Shown here: piece after piece, positions 9,942 to 53,938 of the stretch | Numbering within the stretch: the stretch's first letter is position 1 | How the letters are laid out: each line of letters begins with the position of its first letter | Assembly (NCBI RefSeq): GCF_001713355.1 | Contig: NZ_CP016448.1 | Coordinates: 1,922,001-1,986,000 of the forward strand | From: Methyloversatilis sp. RAC08 | GTDB lineage: Bacteria > Pseudomonadota > Gammaproteobacteria > Burkholderiales > Rhodocyclaceae | Length of the DNA: 64,000 bases | Direction: 5' to 3' | Notes under the pieces: generated by a model | The model's database searches: none | Told to the model about the DNA's origin: nothing | The model's input: the letters and a program-made list of their open reading frames with translations, nothing else | Made by a program: the position numbers and the translations under genes

Positions 9942-10717
9942 GCGCCACCTCGCCCCTGCTCGTCGCGCGCGGTGTCACCGTCGGCATCGACGGCCGCACC
10001 CTGTGCGCCGCGCTCGATCTCGACATCCGGTCCGGTGAAATGCTCGCCGTCATCGGCCGCAACGGCATCGGCAAGTCCACCGTGCTGAGCACGCTGGCCG
10101 GGCTGCGCGCACCGCTCGCCGGCAGCCTGACGCTGGATGATCTGCCGCTCGCCTCGATGGCGCCGCGCGAGCTGGCGTGCCGGCGCGCGCTGCTGGCGCA
10201 GTCGCACGAAGACGCCTTCGCTTCGACCGTGCTGGACACCGTGCTGGTCGGTCGCCATCCTCACATCGGCCGCTGGTCGGACGACAGCCCGCACGACATG
10301 CAGGTCGCGCTCGACGCGATGGCCCGCGTATCGCTCACCGGCTTCGAGGCGCGCGATGTGCGCACGCTGTCCGGCGGCGAACGACAGCGTGTGGCCATCG
10401 CCGCGCTGCTGGCGCAGGACGCACCGCTGTGCCTGCTCGACGAGCCGGTCACCCATCTCGACCTCGATTACCAGATGGACACGCTGGCGCTGTTCGCCGG
10501 CATGGCGCATGACGAGGGTCGCGCCGTGGTGGCCGTGCTGCATGATCTCAATCAGGTGCTGCGTTTCTGCGACCGCGTGCTGCTGCTGACCGGCGGCGGC
10601 GAGTGGATCTGCGGCGCCGTCGACGCGGTGCTGCAGCCGGACACGCTGTCGCGCGCGTTCTGCCATCCGCTGCGTGAGCTGCGCGACGGCGAGCGTCGCT
10701 ATTTCGTGCCGGCATGA
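9938..10717 (+). CDS. btuD: ABC importer ATP-binding protein
   Basis: The ATG at 9938 overlaps the btuC stop (ATGA). The 259-residue ATPase carries Walker A GRNGIGKST, the signature LSGGERQRV, Walker B LCLLDEPVTHLDLDYQ and the switch His in AVLHDLNQVLRF. It energises the permease encoded upstream. Overlaps on both sides imply coupled translation of the three-gene transporter. Confidence 0.85.
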   Translation: MSATSPLLVARGVTVGIDGRTLCAALDLDIRSGEMLAVIGRNGIGKSTVLSTLAGLRAPLAGSLTLDDLPLASMAPRELACRRALLAQSHEDAFASTVLDTVLVGRHPHIGRWSDDSPHDMQVALDAMARVSLTGFEARDVRTLSGGERQRVAIAALLAQDAPLCLLDEPVTHLDLDYQMDTLALFAGMAHDEGRAVVAVLHDLNQVLRFCDRVLLLTGGGEWICGAVDAVLQPDTLSRAFCHPLRELRDGERRYFVPA

Positions 10718-22126: not shown

Positions 22127-23503
22127 TTACGCGGCGACCTCCGACGGGCCGGCCAGCGCGCGCGGCAGGTCCAGCACGAATTCCGCGCCACCCTCCGGGT
22201 GGTTGCGGGCGGACAGCACGCCGCCGTGCTGTTCGACGATGCCGTAGCTGATCGACAGGCCGAGGCCGGTACCCTTGCCGACCGGCTTGGTCGTGAAGAA
22301 GGGCTCGAAAATGCGCGACAGGTACTCGTCGGGTATGCCCGGTCCGTTGTCGCGCACGCTCATGCGCACCCGGTCGCCCTCGTTGGTGCAGCTCAACGTG
22401 AGCTCGGCGACACGATCTTCCGCACCGGCTGCGTCGTAGGCGTTCTGCAGCAGATTCATCACCACCTGCTGCAATTGACCGGCACTGCCCGTGACCACGC
22501 AGGGTTCGCGCGCCGCCCAGTGCAGCGCGACGACCTCGCTGGTGCCCTTCTGTATCCAGTGGATGGCCCGTTCGATCACCGCATTGAGATCGACGGCGCT
22601 GCGCCCTTCCGGATCGACGGCGGAAAAGCGCTTCAGCCCGTTGACGATGTCGGCAGTGCGCTGCGCGCCTTCCATCGTGCCTTCTATCAACGACGGCAGA
22701 TCCTTCAGCAGATGCTCGATGCGCAGCCTGACGCGCAGCGCGCCCAGTTCCTCGTCGGACGCTCCCGCGTGCACGGCGTCGATGTAGCTCCCCATGCGTT
22801 CGCTGTACTTCTTCAGCGCATGCACGTTGCCGAGCACGAAGCTGATCGGGTTGTTCAGCTCGTGCGCGACACCGGCCACCAGGCGACCGAGCGAAGCCAT
22901 CTTTTCCGAATGCAGCAACTGCTGCTGCGCCAGCTTCAGCGCTTCGTGCGCCTCGCGCAGCTCATGGTAGGCGCGCTTCAGTTCGGCCGTCGGCCGGCCG
23001 ACGAGCACGGTGCCGGCACGCCGGCCGTTGCGCGTGAAACGCGGCGTCAGATTGGTGTCCACCGGCACCCCGGCGCCCGCGGCGTCGCGCAGGTTCAGCT
23101 CGACCGCCTCACCCCGGCGCGACGGGTTGGCGTCATCGAGCACGCCGCGCATGCGGGTGCGGCTTTCGTCGTCGGCCAGCAACGCGAACACCGGCGTGCC
23201 GCGCAGCGCGTCGTCACTGCAACCGACCAGTTCGCACAGCGCGGCGTTGGTTTCCTCTATCTCGCCGCGCTCGTTGCACACCAGCAGCACGTCCGACATC
23301 GCCGACATGACGCTGAAGATGAACTGCTGCGACTGTTCCAGTTCGACGTTCTTCTGCTCGAGCGCGATTTCGTCGCTGACCAGCTGGGAATACACCTCGT
23401 CCATGCGCTGGATCACGTCCAGCCAGGTTGCCTCGTCCACGCCTTCGATGTGGGCACCTGCGAGCAAGGCGCTGGTGTTGGCGGACTTCGGGTGGTCGGT
23501 CAT
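22127..23503 (-). CDS. hoxJ: H2-signalling sensor histidine kinase HoxJ/HupT
   Basis: The 458-residue soluble kinase has no membrane segments. A PAS domain lies at about 55-180 ([20 protein letters not shown]), then a coiled linker, the H-box [20 protein letters not shown], and ATPase boxes [20 protein letters not shown] and GKGTGLGLS. The [18 protein letters not shown] stretch is specific to the HupT/HoxJ subgroup that phosphorylates HoxA/HupR and docks on the regulatory hydrogenase HoxBC. All nucleotide-binding glycines look intact. The ATG at 23503 is preferred. It is separated from hoxC by the nickel module, unlike the contiguous hoxABCJ order of Ralstonia. Confidence 0.85.
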
Positions 23504-23584
23504 CGCGGCAGGCAGGGAGGCGTCAGCAGCGCATGGTAGCGCCGACGGCGTTCGCTCCGCCAACCCGTCGAATCGTGCCCGCGG

Positions 23585-25711
23585 TCAGAAGCGCGCGCTC
23601 AACGTGAGGCGCAGGCTGCGCGGCTCGACCGGATGGAAGTGGCGATCGTCGACACCGCCCGCCACCTCTCCACGCAGGCGCGAGGTGTAGAAGTACTCGA
23701 TGTCGCTGTCGCCGCTGTCGAACAGGTTGAACACGTCCAGCATCAGTCGCACGTCGCGGCTGAGCCGGTGGCCGACGCGCAGATAGGCCAGCGTGGTCGA
23801 GCCCGAACGGACCGAATCGTCTTCGACCAGCGGGCGCGGGCCGACGTGGCGCAATTGCAGGTGCCCGAACCAGCCGTTTGCCAGCGGATTGTCGTCGGTC
23901 AGACTCAGGCCGGCCGCGACGACGCGGTCGACCGCGCCCGGCACGTGGTTGCCGGCCGGGTCGTCCTCGGTGAAGCGGGCGCGCGACGCGGCGATGTCGA
24001 GGTCGAACAGCAGCCACGGACGCACCGTCCAGCGGTTGTTCCACTCGATGCCGCTGCGCCGGCTGGCCCGGTTGGGCTCGGTTTCACCGGCGTCGCCGAC
24101 GAACAGCAGTTCCGAATCCAGCTTCAGCGTCCACACCGCAAGCGAACTTTGCAGCCCCGGCACGAGCTCCGTGCGCACGCCGACTTCGCCACCCTTGGTG
24201 CGCACCAGCGCATCGACCGGATCGGCCGGCAGCCCGCCCCGGGCGGTGACGCGTGCCGTGGTGCCGCGGGCGTCGTTGCTGTGGAAGCCGTAGCCGTAGT
24301 TCACGAAATACTCGGTGCGCGCCCAGGGCCCGAAGATGAACGACAGCTTGGGCGACGCGATGTGGTCGTTCGCGTTGCCGCTGTTGGCGGCGATCGAACT
24401 GCTGACGTCGAAGTCGTAGCGGTCGAGGCGCAGCCCGACCAGGCTGCGCAGCCAGGGCGTCCATTGCACGCTGTTTTCGCCGTACAGGCCGAAGCTGGTC
24501 TGGCGTACGTCGCTCTGCTGCGTCACACCGGTGGTGCGGCGCGCGACCGTGGTGTAGAGCCCGACCGGGTTCAGACGGTCGTGCCGCATCTGCACGCCCA
24601 GCGTGTTGGTCATCGGCCGACCGGCGAGCTGGCCGTCCCAGCTGCGGCTCATCGCCACGCCGAACACGGTGCGCTGTTCCGACTGCCGGAACTGGTCGCC
24701 GTCGGCCGGGTTTTCGAGGAAATAGGTGAAGTTTGACCAGAGGTCCAGTTCGGACCGGATCGCGTAGGCGTTGAAGCGGAAGGCGCCGTCGTCCCGGGCG
24801 CGCTGATGGTCGATCGACAGGCTGTAGCGCTGGGTCTTGCCGCCGTCGGTCGGGTCCACCGTGCCGTAGCGGCCGATCAGGCCGGACTGCACGGCGCGCA
24901 GCGGAATCTGGTCGGTCGAGTCCCAGCGCGCGGTATAGGCCATCGCGGTGACCGAGGTACGGTCCGCGCCCTCGCCCAGCGTGTAGCGCAGTACGCCATT
25001 GATGCGGCGGAAGTCTTCCGGATTGTCCCAGGGGCCGTCGTTGCGCGAGGTCTCCAGCGCATAAAGCAGCGTACCGGCGCCAAGCGCGTGCGAATTCATC
25101 AGCAGGCCGCGCCGGTAGCCATCCTGGCCGATGGTCAATTCAGCCGTGCCGTAGTCGAGACGATCGACCAGCCGCAGCCGCGCAGAGCCGGCCGACGCGA
25201 AGTCACCCTCTTCCGCATAGTACGGTCCCTTGCGGTAGTCGATGCGACCGACCAGCTCCGGTATCAGCCAGTTCAGGTCGGTGTAGCCGTGGCCGTGCGC
25301 ATGCGTCGGCATGTTGGCCGGCATGCCATCGATGTAGGTGGCGAAGTCGGTGCCGTGGTCGAGGTTGAAGCCACGCAGGAAGTACTGGTTCGCCTTGCCG
25401 CCGCCACTGTGCTGCGTGACGATCACCCCGGGCACGAATTCCAGTACCTCGGCCGGACGCAGCGTCGGCCGGCTTTCGATCAGGCGCGCCGTGACGCGGC
25501 CCTGACTGGCCGCGTCGGACGTGCCGACCGCGTTGTCGTAATGGCCCTCGACCGTCACCGTTTCCAGATGGTGGGCAGACGGCGATGCTTCGTGCGCCAG
25601 CGCGGTGCCGCACGCCCCGATGACGGGCACGCACAGCAGCCGGAACACGCCCCGCGCCACTGCGGCCGAGGCGCGCAAACCCATCCCGGACAGGTCTTTC
25701 ACTGTGCTCAT
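23585..25711 (-). CDS. TonB-dependent receptor, probable nickel uptake
   Basis: The 708-residue outer-membrane receptor has a signal peptide ending near CGTALA. Its plug domain contains SRPTLRPAEVLEFVPGVIV, NQYFLRGFNLDHGTDFATY and the His-containing PTHAHGHGYTDLNW. A 22-strand-type barrel follows, ending LRLTLSARF. A NikR operator sits 7 bp before the ATG at 25711, and His-rich HEASPSAHH follows the signal peptide; together these indicate nickel as substrate. An ATG at 25684 is an alternative start. A longer form from 25765 would translate through the operator and is less likely. Confidence 0.82.
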   Translation of the reverse strand: MSTVKDLSGMGLRASAAVARGVFRLLCVPVIGACGTALAHEASPSAHHLETVTVEGHYDNAVGTSDAASQGRVTARLIESRPTLRPAEVLEFVPGVIVTQHSGGGKANQYFLRGFNLDHGTDFATYIDGMPANMPTHAHGHGYTDLNWLIPELVGRIDYRKGPYYAEEGDFASAGSARLRLVDRLDYGTAELTIGQDGYRRGLLMNSHALGAGTLLYALETSRNDGPWDNPEDFRRINGVLRYTLGEGADRTSVTAMAYTARWDSTDQIPLRAVQSGLIGRYGTVDPTDGGKTQRYSLSIDHQRARDDGAFRFNAYAIRSELDLWSNFTYFLENPADGDQFRQSEQRTVFGVAMSRSWDGQLAGRPMTNTLGVQMRHDRLNPVGLYTTVARRTTGVTQQSDVRQTSFGLYGENSVQWTPWLRSLVGLRLDRYDFDVSSSIAANSGNANDHIASPKLSFIFGPWARTEYFVNYGYGFHSNDARGTTARVTARGGLPADPVDALVRTKGGEVGVRTELVPGLQSSLAVWTLKLDSELLFVGDAGETEPNRASRRSGIEWNNRWTVRPWLLFDLDIAASRARFTEDDPAGNHVPGAVDRVVAAGLSLTDDNPLANGWFGHLQLRHVGPRPLVEDDSVRSGSTTLAYLRVGHRLSRDVRLMLDVFNLFDSGDSDIEYFYTSRLRGEVAGGVDDRHFHPVEPRSLRLTLSARF

Positions 25712-25717
25712 GTTCTT

Positions 25718-25745
25718 GTATGAAGATTTAAGGCAATCTTCATAC
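25718..25745. promoter_or_regulatory. NikR operator
   Basis: This is a 28-bp inverted repeat of the form GTATGA-N16-TCATAC, with half-sites at 25718-25723 and 25740-25745; the arms extend inward as AGATT/AATCT. It matches the known enterobacterial NikR operator layout. It lies directly in front of the TonB receptor gene and 116 bp from the nikR stop codon. Confidence 0.88.
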
Positions 25746-25760
25746 GCGAAAAGCGTGCCA
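25746..25760 (-). promoter_or_regulatory. Candidate sigma-54 promoter of the nickel receptor gene
   Basis: The minus strand reads TGGCACGCTTTTCGC, an exact -24 TGGCACG with GG-N10-GC spacing. The predicted start site (about 25734) falls inside the adjoining NikR operator, which would explain nickel repression. The -12 half is weak (TCGC instead of TTGC). Confidence 0.5.
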
Positions 25761-25860
25761 GTCATGGCGCCACGCGGGACCGGCGGTCCGGCGAGACAGT
25801 CGGGGTGGAGGTGGTCAGTGCGCTGCCGTTTCGATCGGTGCGGCGGCAGCGGCGCTTGCG

Positions 25861-26361
25861 TCAGGTGCTGGGCTTGATATGCACGTGGCCATGCCCGCCG
25901 CGTTCGTGCCGCCGCGCATAGCTGTGCCCGCCCGGTCCCGTGTGGTGGTGGCCGGCATCCAGTTCGACGCTGATCAGGTTGATCTTGCCGTGATGCACGC
26001 CGCGCTCGGCGCACACCGCATCGGCGAACTGCCGCACCGCTGCGATCTCGCCCTTCAGGATGACGGTTTCAAGGCAGTGGTCGTGGTCGAGGTGGGCGTG
26101 CATCGACGACACCGTGAGATCGTGGTGCGCGTGCTGCAGGCTGATGATGCGTTCGGCCAGGTCGCGCTCGTGGTGATTGAACACGTACGACAGGCAGGCC
26201 ACGCAGTGCGTCGCGCTGCCGGTCTGCTGCGCCGTGCGGTCCAGTTCGGCGCGGAACAGGTCGCGCACCGCCTCGGAGCGGTTACCGTAGCCGCGCTGCG
26301 CGATCCAGTCGTCGAACTGGGCGGCCAGCTGGTCGTCGAGGGATATGGTGAAGCGCTGCAT
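25861..26361 (-). CDS. nikR: Nickel-responsive regulator NikR with His-rich tail
   Basis: The 166-residue protein has a ribbon-helix-helix domain (QRFTISLDDQLAAQFDDW, residues 2-19, then GYGNRSEAVRDL) and an ACT-like metal domain. The high-affinity nickel ligands are present as His77, His88, His90 and Cys96, matching E. coli His76, 87, 89 and Cys95 with an offset of one. The C-terminus carries about 30 extra residues with eight His, absent from standard 130-140-residue NikR. The stop of the Fic-type gene lies 1 bp before its ATG, so the two are translationally linked. It would repress nickel import when nickel is plentiful. Confidence 0.92.
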   Translation of the reverse strand: MQRFTISLDDQLAAQFDDWIAQRGYGNRSEAVRDLFRAELDRTAQQTGSATHCVACLSYVFNHHERDLAERIISLQHAHHDLTVSSMHAHLDHDHCLETVILKGEIAAVRQFADAVCAERGVHHGKINLISVELDAGHHHTGPGGHSYARRHERGGHGHVHIKPST

Positions 26362-26362
26362 G

Positions 26363-27775
26363 TCATGGCTCCGGTGAGGTCGTATCGATCGACGTGCCGT
26401 TCGTGGCCAGCCAGTCGGCAAATTCCAGCGGACGCAGGCCGAAACGGACGGCGTTTCCTTCGTGCAGCGAGCGGAACTCCTGCAGCACCAGTTCAACGAA
26501 GCGCGCGCGTTCTGTTGCCGCCACGTCAGCCGGCATCACGGTGCGTGCTGTCGCTGCGTTCGCCGGCAGACCGCCCAACACGACCGCGCGCACCGCTTCG
26601 GTCAGCGCCTTGCGATGGCGCAGGCGGAAGGTGTCGGGCGGCACCAGTTGCTGTTTTACCGCCACGTATTGCTGGCACGAGCGGGCGTATGCCTGGACGA
26701 ACACGTCGCGCAGCAGCTCGATGCGGTTCAGCTCGTAGACCGCGATCATTGCATCGACATAGGCCTGCTGCGGCACGTCGATGAAGGACAGCGGGCACAG
26801 ATTGGTGCGGATCAGCGGAATGTTGGCGGCCAGCCGCGACACCCGCTTGTTCACGTCCTCGAAGGGCTGCAGATAGGGCAGATGCACCATCAGGAAGAAG
26901 GCCTGCTCGAACGGGTCGAGAATGTCGGCGGCGATGTCGGTGACGATGCCGAACAGCTCGTCGAGCTGCTGCGGCAACGCCAGCGGCCGGTACACGCAGC
27001 CGCTGATCTCGACCGCCCGGCTGCGCACCCGGCCGCCTGCCTGCGGATCGCGCAGCAGGCCGTCGGACAGCAGCGCGTGCAGCGACAGCAGCGTTTCGCG
27101 ATCGATGCCGATGCGGCCCGCGCCATGCACCAGATACTCGATGGCCGCCTTGTGGTTCAGGATCATCTGCGTTTCGAGCGCGTCCTTGCCCTCGGCGATC
27201 TCGCCCAGTTCGATCAGGCGTTCGGTATCGAGCCGCGAATAGGTGTTGCCCTCCAGTTGCGACGAGGCCCAGGACAGGTCGATCAGCAGCCGGTTCAGGA
27301 TGTCGCCGGCAAAGGTGCCCGCCGCCGCTTCGCCGACCGGTGAGCGGCCCAGCACGTGCAGTTGCGCGCGCAGCGGCTCCGGCAGATAGAAGGTGTCATT
27401 GGCGCGATAACGCTCGACGAAGCCGATGTCGTAACCGACCGGGCGACGCAGATGGAGCGGCCGGCGCACCAGATCGCGCAACTCGGCGCCTTCGGCCGAC
27501 AACGTCACATAGGGGGCCGGGGCGGCGGCTGGCAGAGGCTCCATCGCCGCCAGCGCGGCGCCGACGGGCGCCGGGAAATACTTCAGCGCCCGCGCCTCGC
27601 CGCGCGTCAGGACGCGGCACTGCGCGACCAGCTCGGCCAACCGGCGCTGCAACGTGCGCCGCGCCACGCCCTCGCCCAGCGCGCGCAGCAAGCCGTCCAC
27701 ACCGACGCCCTCCGGATGGCGAGCGATCTGTGCGGCAAGCGTGTGCGGATCGATGGACGAGCGGGGCCGGGTCAT
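26363..27775 (-). CDS. Fic-fold protein with N-terminal winged helix and degenerate motif
   Basis: The 470-residue product has a HTH-like N-terminus (about 8-62), a Fic N-terminal region and a Fic core. The inhibitory helix motif S-x3-E-G-N is at 171-177 (SSQLEGN). The catalytic motif, normally HPFx[DE]GNGRxxR, reads QPFEDVNKRVSR at 303-314: the catalytic His is Gln303 and both Gly are replaced, while Asn and the two Arg remain. AMP transfer is therefore doubtful; a regulatory role is more likely. nikR follows after 1 bp. The ATG at 27793 would add six residues; neither start has a clear ribosome site. Confidence 0.75.
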   Translation of the reverse strand: MTRPRSSIDPHTLAAQIARHPEGVGVDGLLRALGEGVARRTLQRRLAELVAQCRVLTRGEARALKYFPAPVGAALAAMEPLPAAAPAPYVTLSAEGAELRDLVRRPLHLRRPVGYDIGFVERYRANDTFYLPEPLRAQLHVLGRSPVGEAAAGTFAGDILNRLLIDLSWASSQLEGNTYSRLDTERLIELGEIAEGKDALETQMILNHKAAIEYLVHGAGRIGIDRETLLSLHALLSDGLLRDPQAGGRVRSRAVEISGCVYRPLALPQQLDELFGIVTDIAADILDPFEQAFFLMVHLPYLQPFEDVNKRVSRLAANIPLIRTNLCPLSFIDVPQQAYVDAMIAVYELNRIELLRDVFVQAYARSCQQYVAVKQQLVPPDTFRLRHRKALTEAVRAVVLGGLPANAATARTVMPADVAATERARFVELVLQEFRSLHEGNAVRFGLRPLEFADWLATNGTSIDTTSPEP

Positions 27776-27800
27776 TTGAGTGGCGCAATTCATTTATCGC

Positions 27801-27889: not shown

Positions 27890-29344
27890 TCAATGCACCG
27901 TACACACCATGCACGGATCGAAGGACCGCACGATGTGCTGCACCGCGACCGGTGTCGTTTCGCCCTCGCGCACCGGCGCGCCTTCGAGTGCCGCTTCCAG
28001 CGCGCCAGGGCGGCCGGCGGCGTCGCGCGGCGAGAAGTTCCAGGTGGTGGGCGCGACGATCTGGTAATTGGCGATGCGGCCGTCGCGCACCGAAACCCAG
28101 TGGCCCAGGCTGCCGCGTGCCGCCTCGCCGAGACCGGCGCCGCTGCCTTCGTCCGGCAGCCGGCCCGGCGTGCAGAAGGGCTCGCCCGGCCGCACCGCGC
28201 GCAGCCAGTCTTCCATCATGAGCACCACACGCGCCAGTTCGAGCAGGCGGGCGACGACGCGGGTGTAGACGGTGCCGCCGTGGCGGCCGACCAGATCGAC
28301 GATGAGCGGATCGCCGCTCGCCAGCTGGCGAGCGATGGCGCCGGTTTCGACCACCTCGCCGGCCAGCCGCGGCGCCTTGTTCCAGGTATAGGCGCCGGCC
28401 TTGTCCGGCTCCGGCAGCGTAACGCCGCTGCGCGGATGCTGCGGGCCGTCGGCGTCGCGCAGCCAGGCGTGCGTGGCGTCTTCGCGGATGGCGGCCGGGT
28501 CGAGCGGCGACAGCGCGCCGGCGTGCCACACGCCGGCGCCGAGTGCGCTGCCGCCGTCCGGCTGCGGGTAGGCGCCGTAACTGAGGAAGCGGCCGGGTCC
28601 GGCGCCGAGTGCGGCCAGCTCCGCGTCGCGCGCGACGGTCAGGAAGAAGCGCAGGTCGCCGGCCAGCGGATCGGTGCCGTGATGCCAGGCATCGAGTGCC
28701 GCTTCCGAATCGAGCGCGGCAACCTGTTCCAGCGGCGCCGCATAGGCGCGGGTTTCGAGGAAGCGGCGGAATTCGCGCACGCGCGCCAGCAGACGCACCC
28801 GTTCGGCGGCGTCAATGGCGCGCGTCGAACCGCCGGGATCGATGCTCTGGGTGTGCGGCCACTTGCCGGCCAATGTGCCGAGCAATGTGAACCAGCGCTG
28901 GCGCGCGGCAATCGCGGCGCGCACCTGTTCGCCGGTCTGCGGCGTGAAGCGGCGCACCGCCTCGGCATGCCAGGGCCGGTCGGCATAGACCGGACGCACG
29001 AAATCCGGCATGAAGAACAGATAGAAATGAGTCAGGTGATCGGCCAGGTTTTCGGTGGCGAGGATGACATTGGTCACGTGCTGGCCATTGGCCGGCATCG
29101 TGATGCCACCGAGCGCGGCCAGCGCGCGCGCCGCCGCCACCGACTGCGACACCGAACAGATGCCGCAGATGCGCGGTACATACACCAGCGCGTCGTGCGG
29201 CTCTCGCCCGCGAAGTATCTGCTCGAAGCCGCGATACATCGGCGCATTGACGTGCGCCGATGCGACGCGGCCATCGGCGATGTCGAGCGTGACTTCGAGA
29301 TCGCCTTCGACGCGGTTGAAGGGGCCGACGAGGAGGCGGGTCAT
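27890..29344 (-). CDS. hoxC: Regulatory (H2-sensing) [NiFe]-hydrogenase large subunit HoxC
   Basis: The 484-residue large subunit has the N-terminal nickel motif RICGIC (Cys60, Cys63) and ends exactly at DPCMVCTVH (Cys478, Cys481). There is no C-terminal extension to be removed. That unprocessed end is the hallmark of HoxC/HupV sensors. It pairs with HoxB to bind H2 and modulate HoxJ. The ATG at 29344 has AGGAAG upstream. It is separated from hoxB by a PEP-CTERM gene on the other strand, so either long readthrough or its own promoter is needed. Confidence 0.9.
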   Translation of the reverse strand: MTRLLVGPFNRVEGDLEVTLDIADGRVASAHVNAPMYRGFEQILRGREPHDALVYVPRICGICSVSQSVAAARALAALGGITMPANGQHVTNVILATENLADHLTHFYLFFMPDFVRPVYADRPWHAEAVRRFTPQTGEQVRAAIAARQRWFTLLGTLAGKWPHTQSIDPGGSTRAIDAAERVRLLARVREFRRFLETRAYAAPLEQVAALDSEAALDAWHHGTDPLAGDLRFFLTVARDAELAALGAGPGRFLSYGAYPQPDGGSALGAGVWHAGALSPLDPAAIREDATHAWLRDADGPQHPRSGVTLPEPDKAGAYTWNKAPRLAGEVVETGAIARQLASGDPLIVDLVGRHGGTVYTRVVARLLELARVVLMMEDWLRAVRPGEPFCTPGRLPDEGSGAGLGEAARGSLGHWVSVRDGRIANYQIVAPTTWNFSPRDAAGRPGALEAALEGAPVREGETTPVAVQHIVRSFDPCMVCTVH

Positions 29345-29606
29345 GAGAACTTCCTGAAGAGCGTGCGGCAATTGTCGAAACGCTTTACACCACTACGCAG
29401 GGATGCGTCGATCCCTGCCGACACAGACCCGCCTTTTAGCCATGCATTCCGCGCCGGCTGTTGCATCCGGCGTCGGCGCAACAAGTCTGGCGCGATCCCT
29501 GCTTTCATCCAGGTTGCTGTCGACGACGTGCCTACCCGCACGCTCATGACGCGTCCGGCCTCGACGGATCGGGCGTGTATCCACCTCCGCGGAAGGAAAG
29601 AACGAC
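29345..29606. other. Divergent region between hoxC and the PEP-CTERM gene
   Basis: This 262-bp region includes a perfect 8-bp hairpin GCAGGGAT/ATCCCTGC (29397-29404 with 29411-29418) and a second ATCCCTGC within the sigma-54-like element at 29488-29503. I found no GG-N10-GC element pointing toward hoxC. Confidence 0.45.
29488..29503 (+). promoter_or_regulatory. Candidate sigma-54 promoter of the PEP-CTERM gene
   Basis: TGGCGCGATCCCTGCT matches TGGCACG-N4-TTGCW at all but two positions and keeps GG-N10-GC. A start near 29514 would leave a ~93-nt leader. RpoN control of PEP-CTERM genes through PrsK/PrsR is known in Zoogloea-type bacteria. Confidence 0.6.
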
Positions 29607-30280: not shown

Positions 30281-31276
30281 TCATTTCAGCCGTGTCCGCC
30301 GCGCAACCGGCGGCACGACGACGTGGTCCGACACCGCGTTCACCTTGACCCGCTTCGGCGTCGCCGACTTCGACAGTGACGCCAGCGCGACGAACCAGGC
30401 CTTGGGCATGTCGGTCGGCAGGCCGATCGGGATGCCGGCGATCTTCGGCGTGGCGTGGAAGGGGTGGCCGGGTTCCTGGAAGCCGGGTTCGGTGCAGCTG
30501 ATGCAGGCGTAGCCGCCGCGGGTGCAGGAGCCTTCGCCGTTCCACGGCCGGGTGTTGCAGTCGGCGTGCGCCTGCGTGCCCTTGCAGCCCATGTTCTCCA
30601 TCATGCAGCCGAGGTCCGAGGGCTTCTCGGCGCTGGCCTTGAATTCGTAGTACTCGTTGCGCGTGCAGCCGTGGTGCACCAGCTGGTCGGCGTAGAAGCG
30701 CGGCCGGCCCAGCGTGTCGAGGTCGGTTTCGGTGAAGCCGTCGGCGGCCAGCGCCATTAGCGTGTCGAGCACCCAGCTCGGATGGGTCGGGCAGCCGGCG
30801 ATATTGATCACCGGCAGGCCGCCGTGCGCGCGGAAACCGGCACCGAGCAGGCCGCCGCGCACGTCGTCCTCGTACTGCAGGCCGCAGGCGTCGGTCGGGT
30901 TGTCGCCGCCGGCGGTGACACCGCCCCAGGCGGCGCAACTGCCGATGGCGATCACGTGACGTGCCTTCGCGGCGAGGCGACTCACCCACTCAACCATCGG
31001 AACGCCGGTGCCGGCCATGACATGGAAGCGGCCGGTGCCGTTCGGCCCGCGCAGCAGCGACCCTTCGACGCACAGCGCGTCCAGCGGCAGATCGCCATCG
31101 AGGATGCGGCCGAGCAGCGCGGTCACTTCGTTGCCGCTGTCGAGCGACAGCGACGGATGCCACAGCAGATCGATGCCGGCATCGCGCAGCTGGCCGTGGA
31201 AATCGTCGGTGTCGGCGCACAGCAGCGACATGCTGCAGCCGCCGCAGCCGCCGGACTGCAACCAGAGCACGTTCAT
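30281..31276 (-). CDS. hoxB: Regulatory [NiFe]-hydrogenase small subunit HoxB
   Basis: The 331-residue small subunit has no twin-arginine signal: it begins MNVLWLQSGGCGGCSMSLL, with Cys11 and Cys14 as proximal-cluster ligands, so it stays in the cytoplasm as HoxB/HupU do. Further cluster cysteines are visible in IGSCAAWGG, INIAGCPTHP and the medial/distal block CTRGGYACISCTEPG. GSCAAWGG has Gly where the O2-tolerant membrane enzyme has a sixth Cys. It overlaps hoxW by 4 nt. Confidence 0.9.
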   Translation of the reverse strand: MNVLWLQSGGCGGCSMSLLCADTDDFHGQLRDAGIDLLWHPSLSLDSGNEVTALLGRILDGDLPLDALCVEGSLLRGPNGTGRFHVMAGTGVPMVEWVSRLAAKARHVIAIGSCAAWGGVTAGGDNPTDACGLQYEDDVRGGLLGAGFRAHGGLPVINIAGCPTHPSWVLDTLMALAADGFTETDLDTLGRPRFYADQLVHHGCTRNEYYEFKASAEKPSDLGCMMENMGCKGTQAHADCNTRPWNGEGSCTRGGYACISCTEPGFQEPGHPFHATPKIAGIPIGLPTDMPKAWFVALASLSKSATPKRVKVNAVSDHVVVPPVARRTRLK

Positions 31277-34511: not shown

Positions 34512-36343
34512 GCCGGCGTGTCCGTGTGCAGATGCGCGCCCGCGTCGGTCCGGCCGGTCACGCGGCGCGCAGACGACAGTTCGGCGTCGAGGTCGACGTC
34601 CGGCTGGAACTGCGGCGCGGTCGAGCGCTGCGCATAGGCGTCGCCGAAATGCCGCATCGTGTCGCGCAGCGGATTGCAGGCCGACGCGCCCAGGCCGCAG
34701 TGGGTGCCGCTGTGCAGCACGGTGTCGAGGTCAAGCAGGCGCTCGATGTCGAAGGCCGAAGCCCGGCCGGCGCCGCGCGCGTGTGCCAGCTTGTCCAGCC
34801 GCCGCACCACCAGTTCGGTGCCGACGCGGCAGGGCGTGCACAGGCCACAGCTCTCGTGCGCGAAGAAGCGGGCGAAGTGGCGCGCCACCTCGAACAGGTC
34901 GCGCGTGCGGTCGAACACCATGAAGGCGCCAGCGCTGGGCACGTCCTCGAAGGCGATGGCGCGGTTGAATTCGGACGCCGGCACGCAGGCGCCGGACGGT
35001 CCGCCGACCTGCACCGCCTGTACGTCGCCGGCGCCGCAGTCTGCGAGGATCTGCGCGATGGTCGTACCCAGCGGGTATTCGTACAGGCCGGGCCGCGCGC
35101 AGTCGCCGGACACCGAATGGATCTTGGTGCCGGTCGATTGCGCGGTGCCGATGCCGGCCCACCAGGCGCCGCCGCGGCGCGCGATATGGGCGACCGCGCA
35201 GAAGGTTTCGACGTTGTTCACCACCGTCGGCCGGCCGAGATAGCCGGCCTGCACCGGGAAGGGCGGGCGGATGCGCGGCGTGCCGCGTTTGCCTTCGAGC
35301 GATTCGATCAGCGCCGATTCTTCGCCGCAGACGTAGGCGCCGGCGCCCAGATGAATCGCGATGTTGAAATCGAAGCCAGCGACGCCGCACGCATCGCGCC
35401 CGAGCAGGCCCTGCGCGCGGCGGCGCGCGAGCACTTCTTCGAGCTGCGGCAGCAGGAAGCGGTACTCGCCGCGCAGGTACACGAAGCCCTGCTGCGCGCC
35501 GATCGCGCGCGCCGCCACCGTCATGCCGTCGAACACCGCGTCGGCGTGAACCGCCAGCAGCACGCGGTCCTTGAAAGTGCCGGGCTCGCCCTCGTCGGCA
35601 TTGCAGACGACGACGCGCAGGTCGCCGGCCGCGTCGCGGCAGGCCTGCCACTTGCGCGCGGTCGGAAAGCCTGCGCCGCCGCGGCCGCGCAGGCCGGACC
35701 GCGCCACTCCGTCGAGCAGGGCCTGCGGCGACCGCGCGAGCACGGCCGGCAACGTCGGCGCGTCGGCGGCGAGACCGCTCAGCAGCAGGTCTGCTCGCTG
35801 CACACCATCGACCACCGCGAACCACGCCGCCGGCCACTGCTCGACCGGCGTGCCGGCCAGCAGCAGATCGGCCAGTGCATCGACGCGCGCCGCGTCCAGT
35901 CGCGTAATGACCTGATGGTGATTCACCAGCAGCGCCGGCCCCTGGTCACACAGCCCGGTACAGGAACAGCGATCGACGCTGAAGAGCCCCTGCGCGTCCA
36001 CCTCGCCCGGTACGACGCCGAGGCGTGCGCACAGCTGCGCCAGCAGCGCTTCGCTGCCCAGCATGCGGTCGGTGATGTTGTCGGAGAACAGCAGCCGCGT
36101 GCCGCCGACCGGGCGGGTGTGGAAGAAACGGTAGAAGCCGGCCACGCCTTCAACGTGGGCCAGCGTCAGACCGAGCGCGCCGGCGATGTGGGCGAGCAGC
36201 GGGCGCGGCAGGTAGTGCGTGACTGCCTGCGTTTCGCGCAGCACCTGCACCAGCGCGTGCGGATCACGCTGCCAGCGGTCGAGCACGGCGTCGGCGGCTG
36301 TCCGTGCCGCCCCGCCGAGGACTTCCGCGTTGTCGCCCATCAT
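34508..36343 (-). CDS. hoxF: NAD-reducing hydrogenase diaphorase subunit HoxF
   Basis: The 611-residue NuoE-NuoF fusion binds FMN and NAD. The N-terminal NuoE-like part has only the second Cys pair clearly (CTGLC near residue 130); the first is lost, as is also the case in Ralstonia HoxF from memory. The NuoF part shows GLRGRGGAGFPTARKW, CNADEGEPGTFKDR, GAGAYVCGEESALI and the [4Fe-4S] motif ESCGLCTPCRVG. It reduces NAD with electrons from H2. Its start overlaps the stop of hoxA, an unusual coupling of a regulator and an enzyme operon. Confidence 0.93.
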   Translation of the reverse strand: MMGDNAEVLGGAARTAADAVLDRWQRDPHALVQVLRETQAVTHYLPRPLLAHIAGALGLTLAHVEGVAGFYRFFHTRPVGGTRLLFSDNITDRMLGSEALLAQLCARLGVVPGEVDAQGLFSVDRCSCTGLCDQGPALLVNHHQVITRLDAARVDALADLLLAGTPVEQWPAAWFAVVDGVQRADLLLSGLAADAPTLPAVLARSPQALLDGVARSGLRGRGGAGFPTARKWQACRDAAGDLRVVVCNADEGEPGTFKDRVLLAVHADAVFDGMTVAARAIGAQQGFVYLRGEYRFLLPQLEEVLARRRAQGLLGRDACGVAGFDFNIAIHLGAGAYVCGEESALIESLEGKRGTPRIRPPFPVQAGYLGRPTVVNNVETFCAVAHIARRGGAWWAGIGTAQSTGTKIHSVSGDCARPGLYEYPLGTTIAQILADCGAGDVQAVQVGGPSGACVPASEFNRAIAFEDVPSAGAFMVFDRTRDLFEVARHFARFFAHESCGLCTPCRVGTELVVRRLDKLAHARGAGRASAFDIERLLDLDTVLHSGTHCGLGASACNPLRDTMRHFGDAYAQRSTAPQFQPDVDLDAELSSARRVTGRTDAGAHLHTDTPA

Positions 36344-37788
36344 CCCTCCAGCCCGAAGCGCGCCATCTTTCCACGCAGACCGACGCGCGACAGCCCCAGT
36401 TCCTTGGCGGCGCGCGTCTTGTTCCAGCGGTGACGCAGCAGCGTTTCGCGCAGCACCATGGCTTCGATGGCATCCAGCCGCTCGGCCAGCGTGCCGCTGG
36501 CCGGCAGCGGGGTGGCGCTGGCGGTGGCGGTCAGGCCGGCCTGACCGTGCAGCACGCGCAGCGACAGCGACTGCGCCTCAATGCGTTCGCTGTCGCTCAG
36601 CGCCAGCGCGCGCGCCAGTTCATTGCGCAGCTCGCGGATGTTGCCGGGCCACGGATAGCCCATCAGACAGGCCATCGCCTCGTCGCTCAGCGAGGCGCCG
36701 GGGCGGCCCAGTTCGATGCCCACCTCTTCGACGACGCGACGGGCGATCGGCTCGATGTCGCCGACGCGTTCGCGCAGCGGCGGCACGGTGAAGGTGGCGC
36801 CGGCGATGCGGTAATACAGATCCTCGCGGAACAGGCCTTCGCGCACCCGCTGTTCGAGCTCGCGGTGGGTGGCGGCGATGACGCGCACGTCCACCGGCAG
36901 CGCGCGCGTGCCGCCGACCGGCCGCACCTCGCCTTCCTGCAGCACACGCAGCAGGCGCACCTGGAAGGCGGGCGAGGTTTCGCCGATTTCGTCGAGGAAC
37001 ACGGTGCCGCCATCGGCGCGCTGAAACAGACCGATGTGGTCTTCGTAGGCGCCGGTGAAGGCACCGCGCTTGTGACCGAACAGTTCGGATTCGAGCAGTG
37101 TTTCCGGTATCGCCGCGCAGTTCTCGACGACGAAGGCGCCGCCGGCGCGCGGGCTGGCGTAGTGGATGGCGCGCGCCAGCAGTTCCTTGCCGGTGCCGGA
37201 TTCGCCTAGCACCAGCACCGACAGGTCATAGCGGGCGACGCGCGCCGCCATCTCGCACACCGAATCCAGCGGGCTGCCGGCCGAGCGTTCGATGCGGTCG
37301 AAACCGAAGGTGCGGCGCGCGCGCTCCAGCTTGTGCGCGGCGCGCTGGCGCAGCACCGGTGTGGCGGTGCGCAGTTCGAGGTCGAGGCGGGCGGTTTCCT
37401 GCTGCAGCGTCTGTGCCTCGGCGGCGTTGCGCACGGTGGCCAGCAGGTGGTCGGGCACCCATGGTTTCAGGATGTACTGGTAGATGCCGGCGTCGTTGAT
37501 GCCGGCGATGATGTCTTCCGAATCGGTGTAGCCGGAAATGACGATGCGCACGACGTCGGGCCAGCGCTCGCGCACCTCTTTCAGGAACAGCACGCCGGTC
37601 AGGCCGGGCATGCGCTGATCGCACAGGATGACGTTCACCTCGTGCCGCTCCAGCTGCTGGCGCGCGTCGTCGGCACCGCTGGCGGTGAGCACGGAGAAAT
37701 CCTCTTCCAGCGTGCGGCGCATCGCGTCCTGCGAACGCACTTCGTCGTCAACCACCAGCACCGTCGGAAGGCGCGGTGCGGCGTTCAT
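36340..37788 (-). CDS. hoxA: Sigma-54 response regulator HoxA/HupR
   Basis: The 482-residue NtrC-type activator has a receiver domain with phospho-acceptor Asp57 in ILCDQRMPG. The AAA+ domain has Walker A GESGTGKE, the sigma-54 contact loop GAFTGA and Walker B GGTVFLDEIGE. A C-terminal Fis-like HTH follows (WNKTRAAKELGLSRVGLRGK). HoxJ phosphorylates it; in Ralstonia the unphosphorylated form activates hox promoters. It overlaps hoxX and hoxF by 4 nt each. Confidence 0.93.
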   Translation of the reverse strand: MNAAPRLPTVLVVDDEVRSQDAMRRTLEEDFSVLTASGADDARQQLERHEVNVILCDQRMPGLTGVLFLKEVRERWPDVVRIVISGYTDSEDIIAGINDAGIYQYILKPWVPDHLLATVRNAAEAQTLQQETARLDLELRTATPVLRQRAAHKLERARRTFGFDRIERSAGSPLDSVCEMAARVARYDLSVLVLGESGTGKELLARAIHYASPRAGGAFVVENCAAIPETLLESELFGHKRGAFTGAYEDHIGLFQRADGGTVFLDEIGETSPAFQVRLLRVLQEGEVRPVGGTRALPVDVRVIAATHRELEQRVREGLFREDLYYRIAGATFTVPPLRERVGDIEPIARRVVEEVGIELGRPGASLSDEAMACLMGYPWPGNIRELRNELARALALSDSERIEAQSLSLRVLHGQAGLTATASATPLPASGTLAERLDAIEAMVLRETLLRHRWNKTRAAKELGLSRVGLRGKMARFGLEG

Positions 37789-50637: not shown

Positions 50638-52494
<1,857 letters not shown>

Positions 52495-52544: not shown

Positions 52545-53630
52545 TCAGTGGTCAGCCGTGCTGGCGGGGGTATCGTTCTTGTGCGAGGCGCGCTTGATCG
52601 CCGATACCGCGGCGTGCGCCACCGCGGCTGCACCGACCACGCCGGCGGCCGTCGCGCCGACCTGATCGGCGTTCGCCTCGATGCCGAACTGGTGGATGTC
52701 GGTCAGCCGGTCGTAGAACGAACCCTTGTCCCAGAAGCCGTCTTCCGAACAGCCGATGCAGCCGTGGCCGGCCTTGATCGGGAAGCTGGTGCCCTCGTTC
52801 CACTGCACGGTGGAACAGGCGTTGTAGGTGGTCGGGCCCTTGCAGCCGACCTTGTAGAGGCAGTAGCCCTTGCGCGCCGAGTCGTCGTCCCAGGCCTCGA
52901 CGAACTGGCCGGCGTCGAAGTGCGGGCGGCGGTAGCACTTGTCGTGGATGCGCTGGCTGTAGAACATCTTCGGCCGGCCCTGGCGGTCCAGTTCGGGAAT
53001 GCGGTCGAAGGTGAGCATGTAGGTGATGACGCCGGTCATCACCTCGGCGATCGGCGGGCAGCCAGGCACCTTGATGATGGGCTTGTCGAAGATGACCTTG
53101 TGCACCGGCGTAGCCTGGGTCGGGTTCGGCTTCGCCGCCTGCACGCAGCCCCAGCTGGCGCAGCTGCCCCAGCTGATGATGGCCTTGGCGTCCTTGGCCA
53201 CGTGCTTCAACTGGTCGATGAAGGGCTTGCCGCCGATGATGCAGCTCATGCCGTCCTGGTTCAGCGGCGGGTTGCCCTCGACCGCCAGGATGTAGTTGCC
53301 CTTGTACTTGGTCATGATCTCTTCGAGGATCGCCTCGGCCTGGTGCCCGGCGGCGGCCATCAGCGTGTCGTCGTAGTCGAGCGAAATCATCGATAGCACC
53401 ACGTCCTTCGCCAGCGGATGCGCCGAGCGGATGAAGGATTCGGAACAGCAGGTGCATTCCAGCCCGTGCAGCCACAGCACCGGCGTGCGCGGCTTGGTTT
53501 CCATCGCATGCGCGATCTGCGGCACGAAGGCCGGGCCGAGCCCGAGCGACGTGGCAGTCAGCGAGCAGTACTTGAGAAAGCTGCGGCGCGAAATGCCCTG
53601 CCGGCGCATCACCTCATAGAAGGTTTCCAT
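52545..53630 (-). CDS. hoxK: O2-tolerant membrane-bound hydrogenase small subunit HoxK
   Basis: The 361-residue precursor has the twin-arginine motif RRSFLK at 15-20 and a cleavage site after AHA at 40-42. ECTCCSESF gives mature Cys17, Cys19 and Cys20; GSCASWGC gives Cys115 and Cys120. The extra Cys19 and Cys120 are the hallmark of the [4Fe-3S] proximal cluster that allows turnover in air. A C-terminal hydrophobic stretch ([20 protein letters not shown]) anchors it to the membrane. It begins the hydrogenase operon. Confidence 0.95.
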
Positions 53631-53709: not shown

Positions 53710-53725
53710 AACAAGATGCGGGCCA
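53710..53725 (-). promoter_or_regulatory. Candidate sigma-54 promoter of the hydrogenase operon
   Basis: The minus strand reads TGGCCCGCATCTTGTT, matching TGGCACG-N4-TTGCW except for two bases. It lies 80 bp upstream of hoxK, with a predicted start near 53698. A sigma-54 activator, hoxA, is encoded in the same cluster, as in Ralstonia where hoxK is transcribed by RpoN. Confidence 0.65.
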
Positions 53726-53751: not shown

Positions 53752-53938
53752 TAGGTATTCAGATCAAGACCTTGTTCCGTATCGAAAAACGCATTCGAGC
53801 GGACAGGTCAGGCGGCGGCTGTCGTCAGGCGACGGTGGAAGGTGGATTTGCGCTTTCCACCAGGCGGCGGAAAGCGCGCTTGCAGCGGGCAGGGATCGCC
53901 GTGAGCAGTCCGGACGCAGCAGCGTGCGCCCGGAGGCG

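Follow-up and report, generated by a model that had tools for sequence, protein, structure and literature searches.

The window, meaning the whole stretch of 64,000 nucleotides of Methyloversatilis sp. RAC08 DNA that was analysed, carries on its minus strand a hydrogen cluster like that of C. necator. Its genes follow in the order hoxK/hoxG, hyp genes, hoxX, hoxA, a second hydrogenase module, hoxB, hoxC, fic, nikR, a gene for a TonB-dependent receptor, and hoxJ. The relevant genes and sites are listed here.

53710-53725, minus strand: -24/-12 element of the hoxK (MBH) promoter, TGGCCCGCATCTTGTT, GG-N10-GT
52545-53630, minus strand: hoxK, hydrogen cluster
50638-52494, minus strand: hoxG, hydrogen cluster
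36340-37788, minus strand: hoxA, sigma-54 activator with a GAFTGA motif, 73% identical to the C. necator pHG1 homologue
30281-31276, minus strand: hoxB, regulatory hydrogenase small subunit, 78% identical to pHG1 HoxB, without a Tat signal
27890-29371, minus strand: hoxC, regulatory hydrogenase large subunit, 71% identical to that of C. necator
25861-26361, minus strand: nikR, with RHH and nickel-binding domains (Pfam) and a match to the NCBIfam NikR equivalog at 4.5e-61
25745-25760, minus strand: sigma-54 -24/-12 element TGGCACG-CTTT-TCGC-G, GG at 25759-25758 and GC at 25747-25746
25732-25736, minus strand: predicted transcription start near 25734, 12 nt after the -12, inferred from sigma-54 geometry
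25718-25745, no strand assigned: predicted NikR operator GTATGAAGATTTAAGGCAATCTTCATAC, exact match, conserved in congeners, reaching from about -11 to +17 relative to the predicted start
23585-25711, minus strand: TonB-dependent receptor with Plug and beta-barrel domains, ATG at 25711, 49% identical to the receptor of the pHG1 hox region
22127-23563, minus strand: hoxJ-type PAS/histidine kinase, 65% identical to the C. necator pHG1 homologue

The nearest relatives of the receptor are 75-93% identical and all belong to Methyloversatilis. It is likely to be a nickel receptor, nickel as its substrate being inferred. The nikR gene lies about 150 bp upstream of the receptor gene in the same direction, and the nickel-ligand residues of its product are conserved with E. 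coli NikR (1q5v, PDB alignment). On the other side, hoxJ begins 21 bp past the receptor stop and is probably co-transcribed with the receptor, again by inference. HoxK carries a Tat signal and HoxB does not, as expected of a regulatory hydrogenase. The space between hoxC and nikR is occupied by a Fic/DOC-family gene (26363-27793, minus strand). Five congeners (G153, G183, G227, G207, G070) have it too; three others (G244, G273, G297) do not, and in these nikR directly follows hoxC. The hoxC frame of G273 (C8:285632-287107) contains one in-frame TGA, reflecting an assembly error or a pseudogene. In the M. thermotolerans-like G118, hoxJ has been relocated and lies directly upstream of hoxK (L075, 16147-14762) instead of after the receptor gene.

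The palindrome GTATGA-N16-TCATAC at 25718-25745 spans 28 bp without a mismatch, and its arms are perfect over 11 bp (GTATGAAGATT-TAAGGC-AATCTTCATAC). Matches with three or fewer mismatches are no rarity in the window (4 found, against a mean of 6.5 in window shuffles), and only this one has none; it is also the sole zero-mismatch occurrence in the 3.94-Mb genome. An operator and an encoded NikR with an RHH domain and nickel-ligand residues are two of the criteria for a NikR-regulated promoter, and both are fulfilled here. The palindrome is predicted to be a NikR operator at a nickel-gene promoter; nickel-dependent binding and repression are inferred, there being no binding data.

On the minus strand, the 16-mer TGGCACGCTTTTCGCG at 25760-25745 contains an exact TGGCACG with GG-N10-GC spacing. 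It ends on the base with which the operator begins (25745), and it lies 34 bp upstream of the receptor start codon, the strand from nikR to the receptor reading ...ATGAC TGGCACG CTTT TCGC GTATGAAGATTGCCTTAAATCTTCATAC AAGAAC ATG. The sigma-54 consensus is TGGCAYR-N4-TTGCW with GG and GC 10 bp apart. The spacing is met and TCGCG replaces TTGCW, which gives two mismatches to TGGCACGN4TTGCW (TCGC for TTGC, and the final G), and the -12 is accordingly a weaker sigma-54 match. With the -12 at 25746, transcription is predicted to start near 25734, within the operator. An earlier note made from the sequence alone had described a TonB receptor gene preceded by a 28-bp NikR operator, an abutting exact TGGCACG with GG-N10-GC spacing, and a start inside the operator. 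The operator and the receptor held without change, the element held with the imperfect -12 as a qualification, and the start held as geometry only.

By itself, the sigma-54 match is weak evidence. A scan of the window with N4 between the two halves returned 10 matches as good or better, where 16 were expected, so that in a window this rich in GC the match is no rarer than chance would make it. The element becomes convincing because of the comparison across genomes, not because of the match at a single site. An ordinary sigma-70 promoter could be proposed instead, with TATGA(A/T) inside the operator as its -10 and with TGGCACG either accidental or the property of another factor. In its favour, the half-site GTATGAA holds a passable -10 (TATGAA), and the chance-level frequency of the sigma-54 match gives it room. 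Against it, no sigma-70-type promoter pair was found in a search of 25650-25900. The comparisons among congeners and across genera also bear on this alternative.

The upstream regions of all 12 available Methyloversatilis congeners having the receptor were aligned. TGGCA(C/T)(G/A)-N4-TCGCG is retained before 9 of the 12 receptors while the DNA upstream diverges. In an ungapped comparison of four distant genomes (RAC08 itself, G070, G005 and G285), 12 of 17 columns in the element are invariant, compared to 3 of 60 upstream (p=6e-8). The most telling congener is G285: nikR is missing, the receptor gene and hoxC are directly adjacent and the operator is degenerate, but TGGCATGTTTCTCGCG, the sigma-54 element, is still intact; the element is therefore not a by-product of the operator. 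This locus (L087, about 10463-10716) can be regarded as a natural nikR deletion with the sigma-54 element kept. The element has been lost in three congeners: the sister species G244 and G207 have lost both GG and GC and have a changed left half-site, and G118 has lost the -12 and the operator. All three keep HoxA and nikR, so these losses are not explained by loss of HoxA. In G259, the thirteenth congener, the receptor, nikR, hoxC and HoxA are all missing.

The arrangement is not confined to the genus. When only the N10 composite was sought in 399 genomes of the order, allowing up to two mismatches, the sole zero-mismatch match was that of RAC08 itself, which gave the impression of a genus-specific architecture. 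A search with variable spacing overturned this impression. In 399 genomes of the family, TGGCA separated by any 0-30 bases from a following exact NikR operator of 27-28 bp was found 44 times, in 35 genomes. The spacing between TGGCA and the operator is N8 in 28 of the 44 matches, with a probability of 4e-31 under a uniform chance model, in which relatives are treated as independent although they are not. The N10 spacing accounts for another 8 (seven from Methyloversatilis and one without the -12 GC), and the remaining 8, taken to be chance matches, are scattered over spacings 3, 5, 6, 15, 17, 20 and 24. Among the N8 matches, 25 of 28 read TGGCAYR-N4-TTGTATGA, that is, with TTGT at the -12. In this form the -12 GT is made up of the first two bases of the half-site GTATGA, the dinucleotide GT being the one used in the hoxK promoter. 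The sigma-54 distance GG-N10-G is the same in both registers and it is the operator that shifts, by 2 bp. No other single observation argues as strongly for reading of the element by sigma-54 as this fixed -24 to -12 distance across two operator registers.

Genes downstream of the composites encode mainly NicO/HoxN-type nickel permeases and TonB receptors; the three permeases tested scored 63.5, 59.7 and 59.4 bits against Pfam NicO. A position within or close to the hox genes is frequent among the composites; in genus g62, for instance, they come immediately after hoxJ. In the wider order, the N8 form precedes a nickel permease gene beside hoxJ in two more families (G359 and G464), with nikR also adjacent in G359; the remaining wider-order matches look like chance. 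Single cases precede another TonB receptor (G241) and an unidentified exported protein (L116 in G037), which is small, of unknown family and has a C-terminal membrane segment; it might conceivably be a periplasmic component of nickel transport. In many g62 genomes (L103, L107, L108, L113 and others) a near-invariant TCAATACGAACAATGACTTATTGATC abuts the -24 of the permease promoter, and a role as an IHF or activator site can be entertained for it.

Taken with these comparisons, the sigma-70 alternative is very unlikely. The conserved block is exactly TGGCAYR-N4-TCGC, TGGCAYG-N4-TT recurs across genera at fixed spacing, and G285 retains the element without the operator. A second alternative accepts binding by sigma-54 RNA polymerase (Esigma54) and denies it a productive role: the site would be silent or a roadblock, most receptor expression would come from the hox/nikR transcript that starts upstream, and the composite would do no more than tune it. 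The co-directional arrangement of nikR and the receptor gene some 150 bp apart would allow this, and many sigma-54 binding sites in E. coli are intragenic, away from promoters (PMC4591121). Against this alternative, the element stands shortly before the start codon, in promoter position, in most congeners, and precedes different nickel genes in other genomes. It too is judged very improbable. A functional sigma-54 promoter carrying a NikR operator remains the preferred reading.

If the promoter is read by sigma-54, an activator is needed to open it, and the hoxK promoter offers an internal comparison. Its -24/-12 element (CTGGCCCGCAWCTTGTTAGT, GG-N10-GT) is independent of that before the receptor and is conserved across the aligned Methyloversatilis genomes, G207 carrying a variant. 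In C. necator, the PMBH and PSH promoters are sigma-54- and HoxA-dependent (PMC4377017). The genus also conserves an IHF-like CAA-N4-TTG, part of a larger inverted repeat, upstream of the hoxK element (about 53760-53800, minus strand). A palindromic enhancer common to the receptor promoters and the hoxK upstream region was sought and none was found. Dyads common to both promoter sets numbered 4, compared to 0.1 in a column-permuted control, none of them palindromic, and TTG-N5-CAA is absent from both sets.

The distribution of HoxA provides a further line of evidence. With orthologues defined at E<=1e-140 (the best paralogues reach about 1e-86), HoxA is present in 170 of the 399 family genomes and in 29 of the 29 strict-composite genomes (pooled p=4e-12, without correction for shared ancestry). 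Within genus g36, the composite occurs in 6 of 9 HoxA-positive genomes and 0 of 12 HoxA-negative genomes (p=0.0015); within g62, the figures are 12 of 17 and 0 of 4 (p=0.02), a contrast that may in part be due to a missing target gene. Four HoxA-negative g36 genomes (G263, G277, G036 and G742) keep the receptor target and the NikR operator without the element. One of these, G263, has a -24-like TGGCATG 5' of the operator of a NicO permease gene, but CCGT at the -12. NikR operators without the element are also found in HoxA-positive genomes, among others G078, G119, G081 and G731 (receptor).

The composite might be driven by another enhancer-binding protein, for example a nitrogen regulator of the NtrC type or another response regulator, with HoxA co-occurring only by way of the hydrogenase clusters. 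At E<=1e-60, every congener has 12-22 HoxA-like enhancer-binding proteins, the search for an enhancer in common with the hoxK promoter was negative, and G244, G207 and G118 have lost the element with their HoxA intact. These points keep the alternative alive. On the other hand, HoxA accompanies every strict composite and the contrast is repeated within genera, many composites sit in or near hox genes, and the g36 genomes lacking HoxA keep the operator without the element; another activator is consequently considered unlikely. HoxA is probably the activator and is the likeliest candidate, without being proven. Its role is only inferred because no common enhancer site was found and several HoxA-positive genomes are without the element.

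Regarding the interpretive claims of the earlier note, the proposal of a sigma-54 promoter is supported by conservation and by recurrence at fixed geometry. The guess that HoxA activates it is supported by the hoxA, hoxBC and hoxJ homologues in the cluster and by co-occurrence, and is still an inference. A sigma-70-dependent start outside the operator, which would have refuted the proposal, found no candidate in the sequence search at 25650-25900. The earlier note had foreseen neither the recurrence of the arrangement as a class nor its commoner form, in which the -12 dinucleotide is supplied by the GT of the operator itself.

The main reading is that the receptor promoter is a sigma-54 promoter, probably HoxA-activated, that is occluded by nickel-loaded NikR at the -12 and start. 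This is held with high confidence. It rests on the sequence and its conservation, on spacing and gene context, and on the co-occurrence with HoxA; that the promoter is transcribed, bound by NikR and dependent on HoxA is inferred, there being no data on transcripts, binding or mutants. The receptor gene, probably together with hoxJ, would be transcribed from the -24/-12 at 25760-25746, and an activator, most likely HoxA under HoxBC/HoxJ control, would open the promoter in hydrogenase-inducing conditions. Nickel-loaded NikR on 25718-25745 would lie over the stretch from -12 to about +15, which takes in the bases beside the -12, the region that melts and the start site. It would exclude or block Esigma54, by preventing either closed-complex binding or melting. 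Nickel import would then be switched on only if hydrogenase is wanted and nickel is short, because HoxA would open, and nickel-loaded NikR would veto, one and the same promoter. The same promoter may feed the H2-signalling kinase gene hoxJ, creating a nickel-dependent feedback; this is speculation from a gene order that is not kept in all congeners, and can be offered only as a possibility. A bolder reading, which appears probable, is that H2-oxidising betaproteobacteria share a recurrent promoter class, not described before, in which sigma-54 and a metal repressor share or abut the -12, forming an AND gate in two registers that controls nickel permeases and outer-membrane receptors and decays upon loss of HoxA.

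Sigma-54 promoters are normally described as activated from a distance, with repressors overlapping their core being uncommon. If the reading is correct, a metal repressor placed on the -12 and start shows how sigma-54 gains a second, vetoing signal, and hydrogenase induction is tied at single promoters to the supply of its metal. It would also explain how H2 oxidisers avoid importing unneeded nickel, and would provide a natural AND gate (H2/HoxA plus low nickel) for engineering. Dozens of sequenced relatives permit immediate tests.

Several parts of this arrangement have precedents. The NikR signal of E. coli nikABCDE, GTATGAT-N13/14-ATCATAC, has the same consensus and the same 27-28 bp span, so that the published enterobacterial signal matches the operator described here (PMC545781), and the NikR of RAC08 scores 134 bits to E. 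coli NikR. As in classical NikR regulons, the targets are nickel importers, and NikR control of NiCoT permeases has been predicted previously (PMC2667541). What differs from classical regulons is that no sigma-70 candidate was found here and that a -12 element lies against the operator or overlaps it. TonB-dependent nickel uptake in Helicobacter pylori is under NikR control, which resembles the receptor here. Unlike this receptor, the H. pylori nickel receptors are not known to lie in a hox/HoxA cluster or on a sigma-54 promoter. The operator consensus and the control of nickel importers by NikR are therefore known, and NikR on a sigma-54 promoter appears to be new. No report of it was found in the openly licensed literature searched; most subscription journals were outside that scope, which makes this weak evidence of novelty.

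The closest system is that of C. necator pHG1, whose hoxA-hoxB-hoxC-hoxJ-hoxN cluster resembles that of RAC08 (HoxA 73%, HoxB/C 78/71%, HoxJ 65% and the linked TonB receptor 49% identical). The hydrogenase of C. necator is likewise on sigma-54 (PMC4377017), and the hoxK promoter in the window has GG-N10-GT. The two systems differ in that pHG1 has no NikR site upstream of its receptor gene, and no nikR is listed for the part of pHG1 examined. Unlike C. necator, Methyloversatilis and its relatives appear to have given their nickel importers a sigma-54 promoter of their own, with a NikR operator on top of it.
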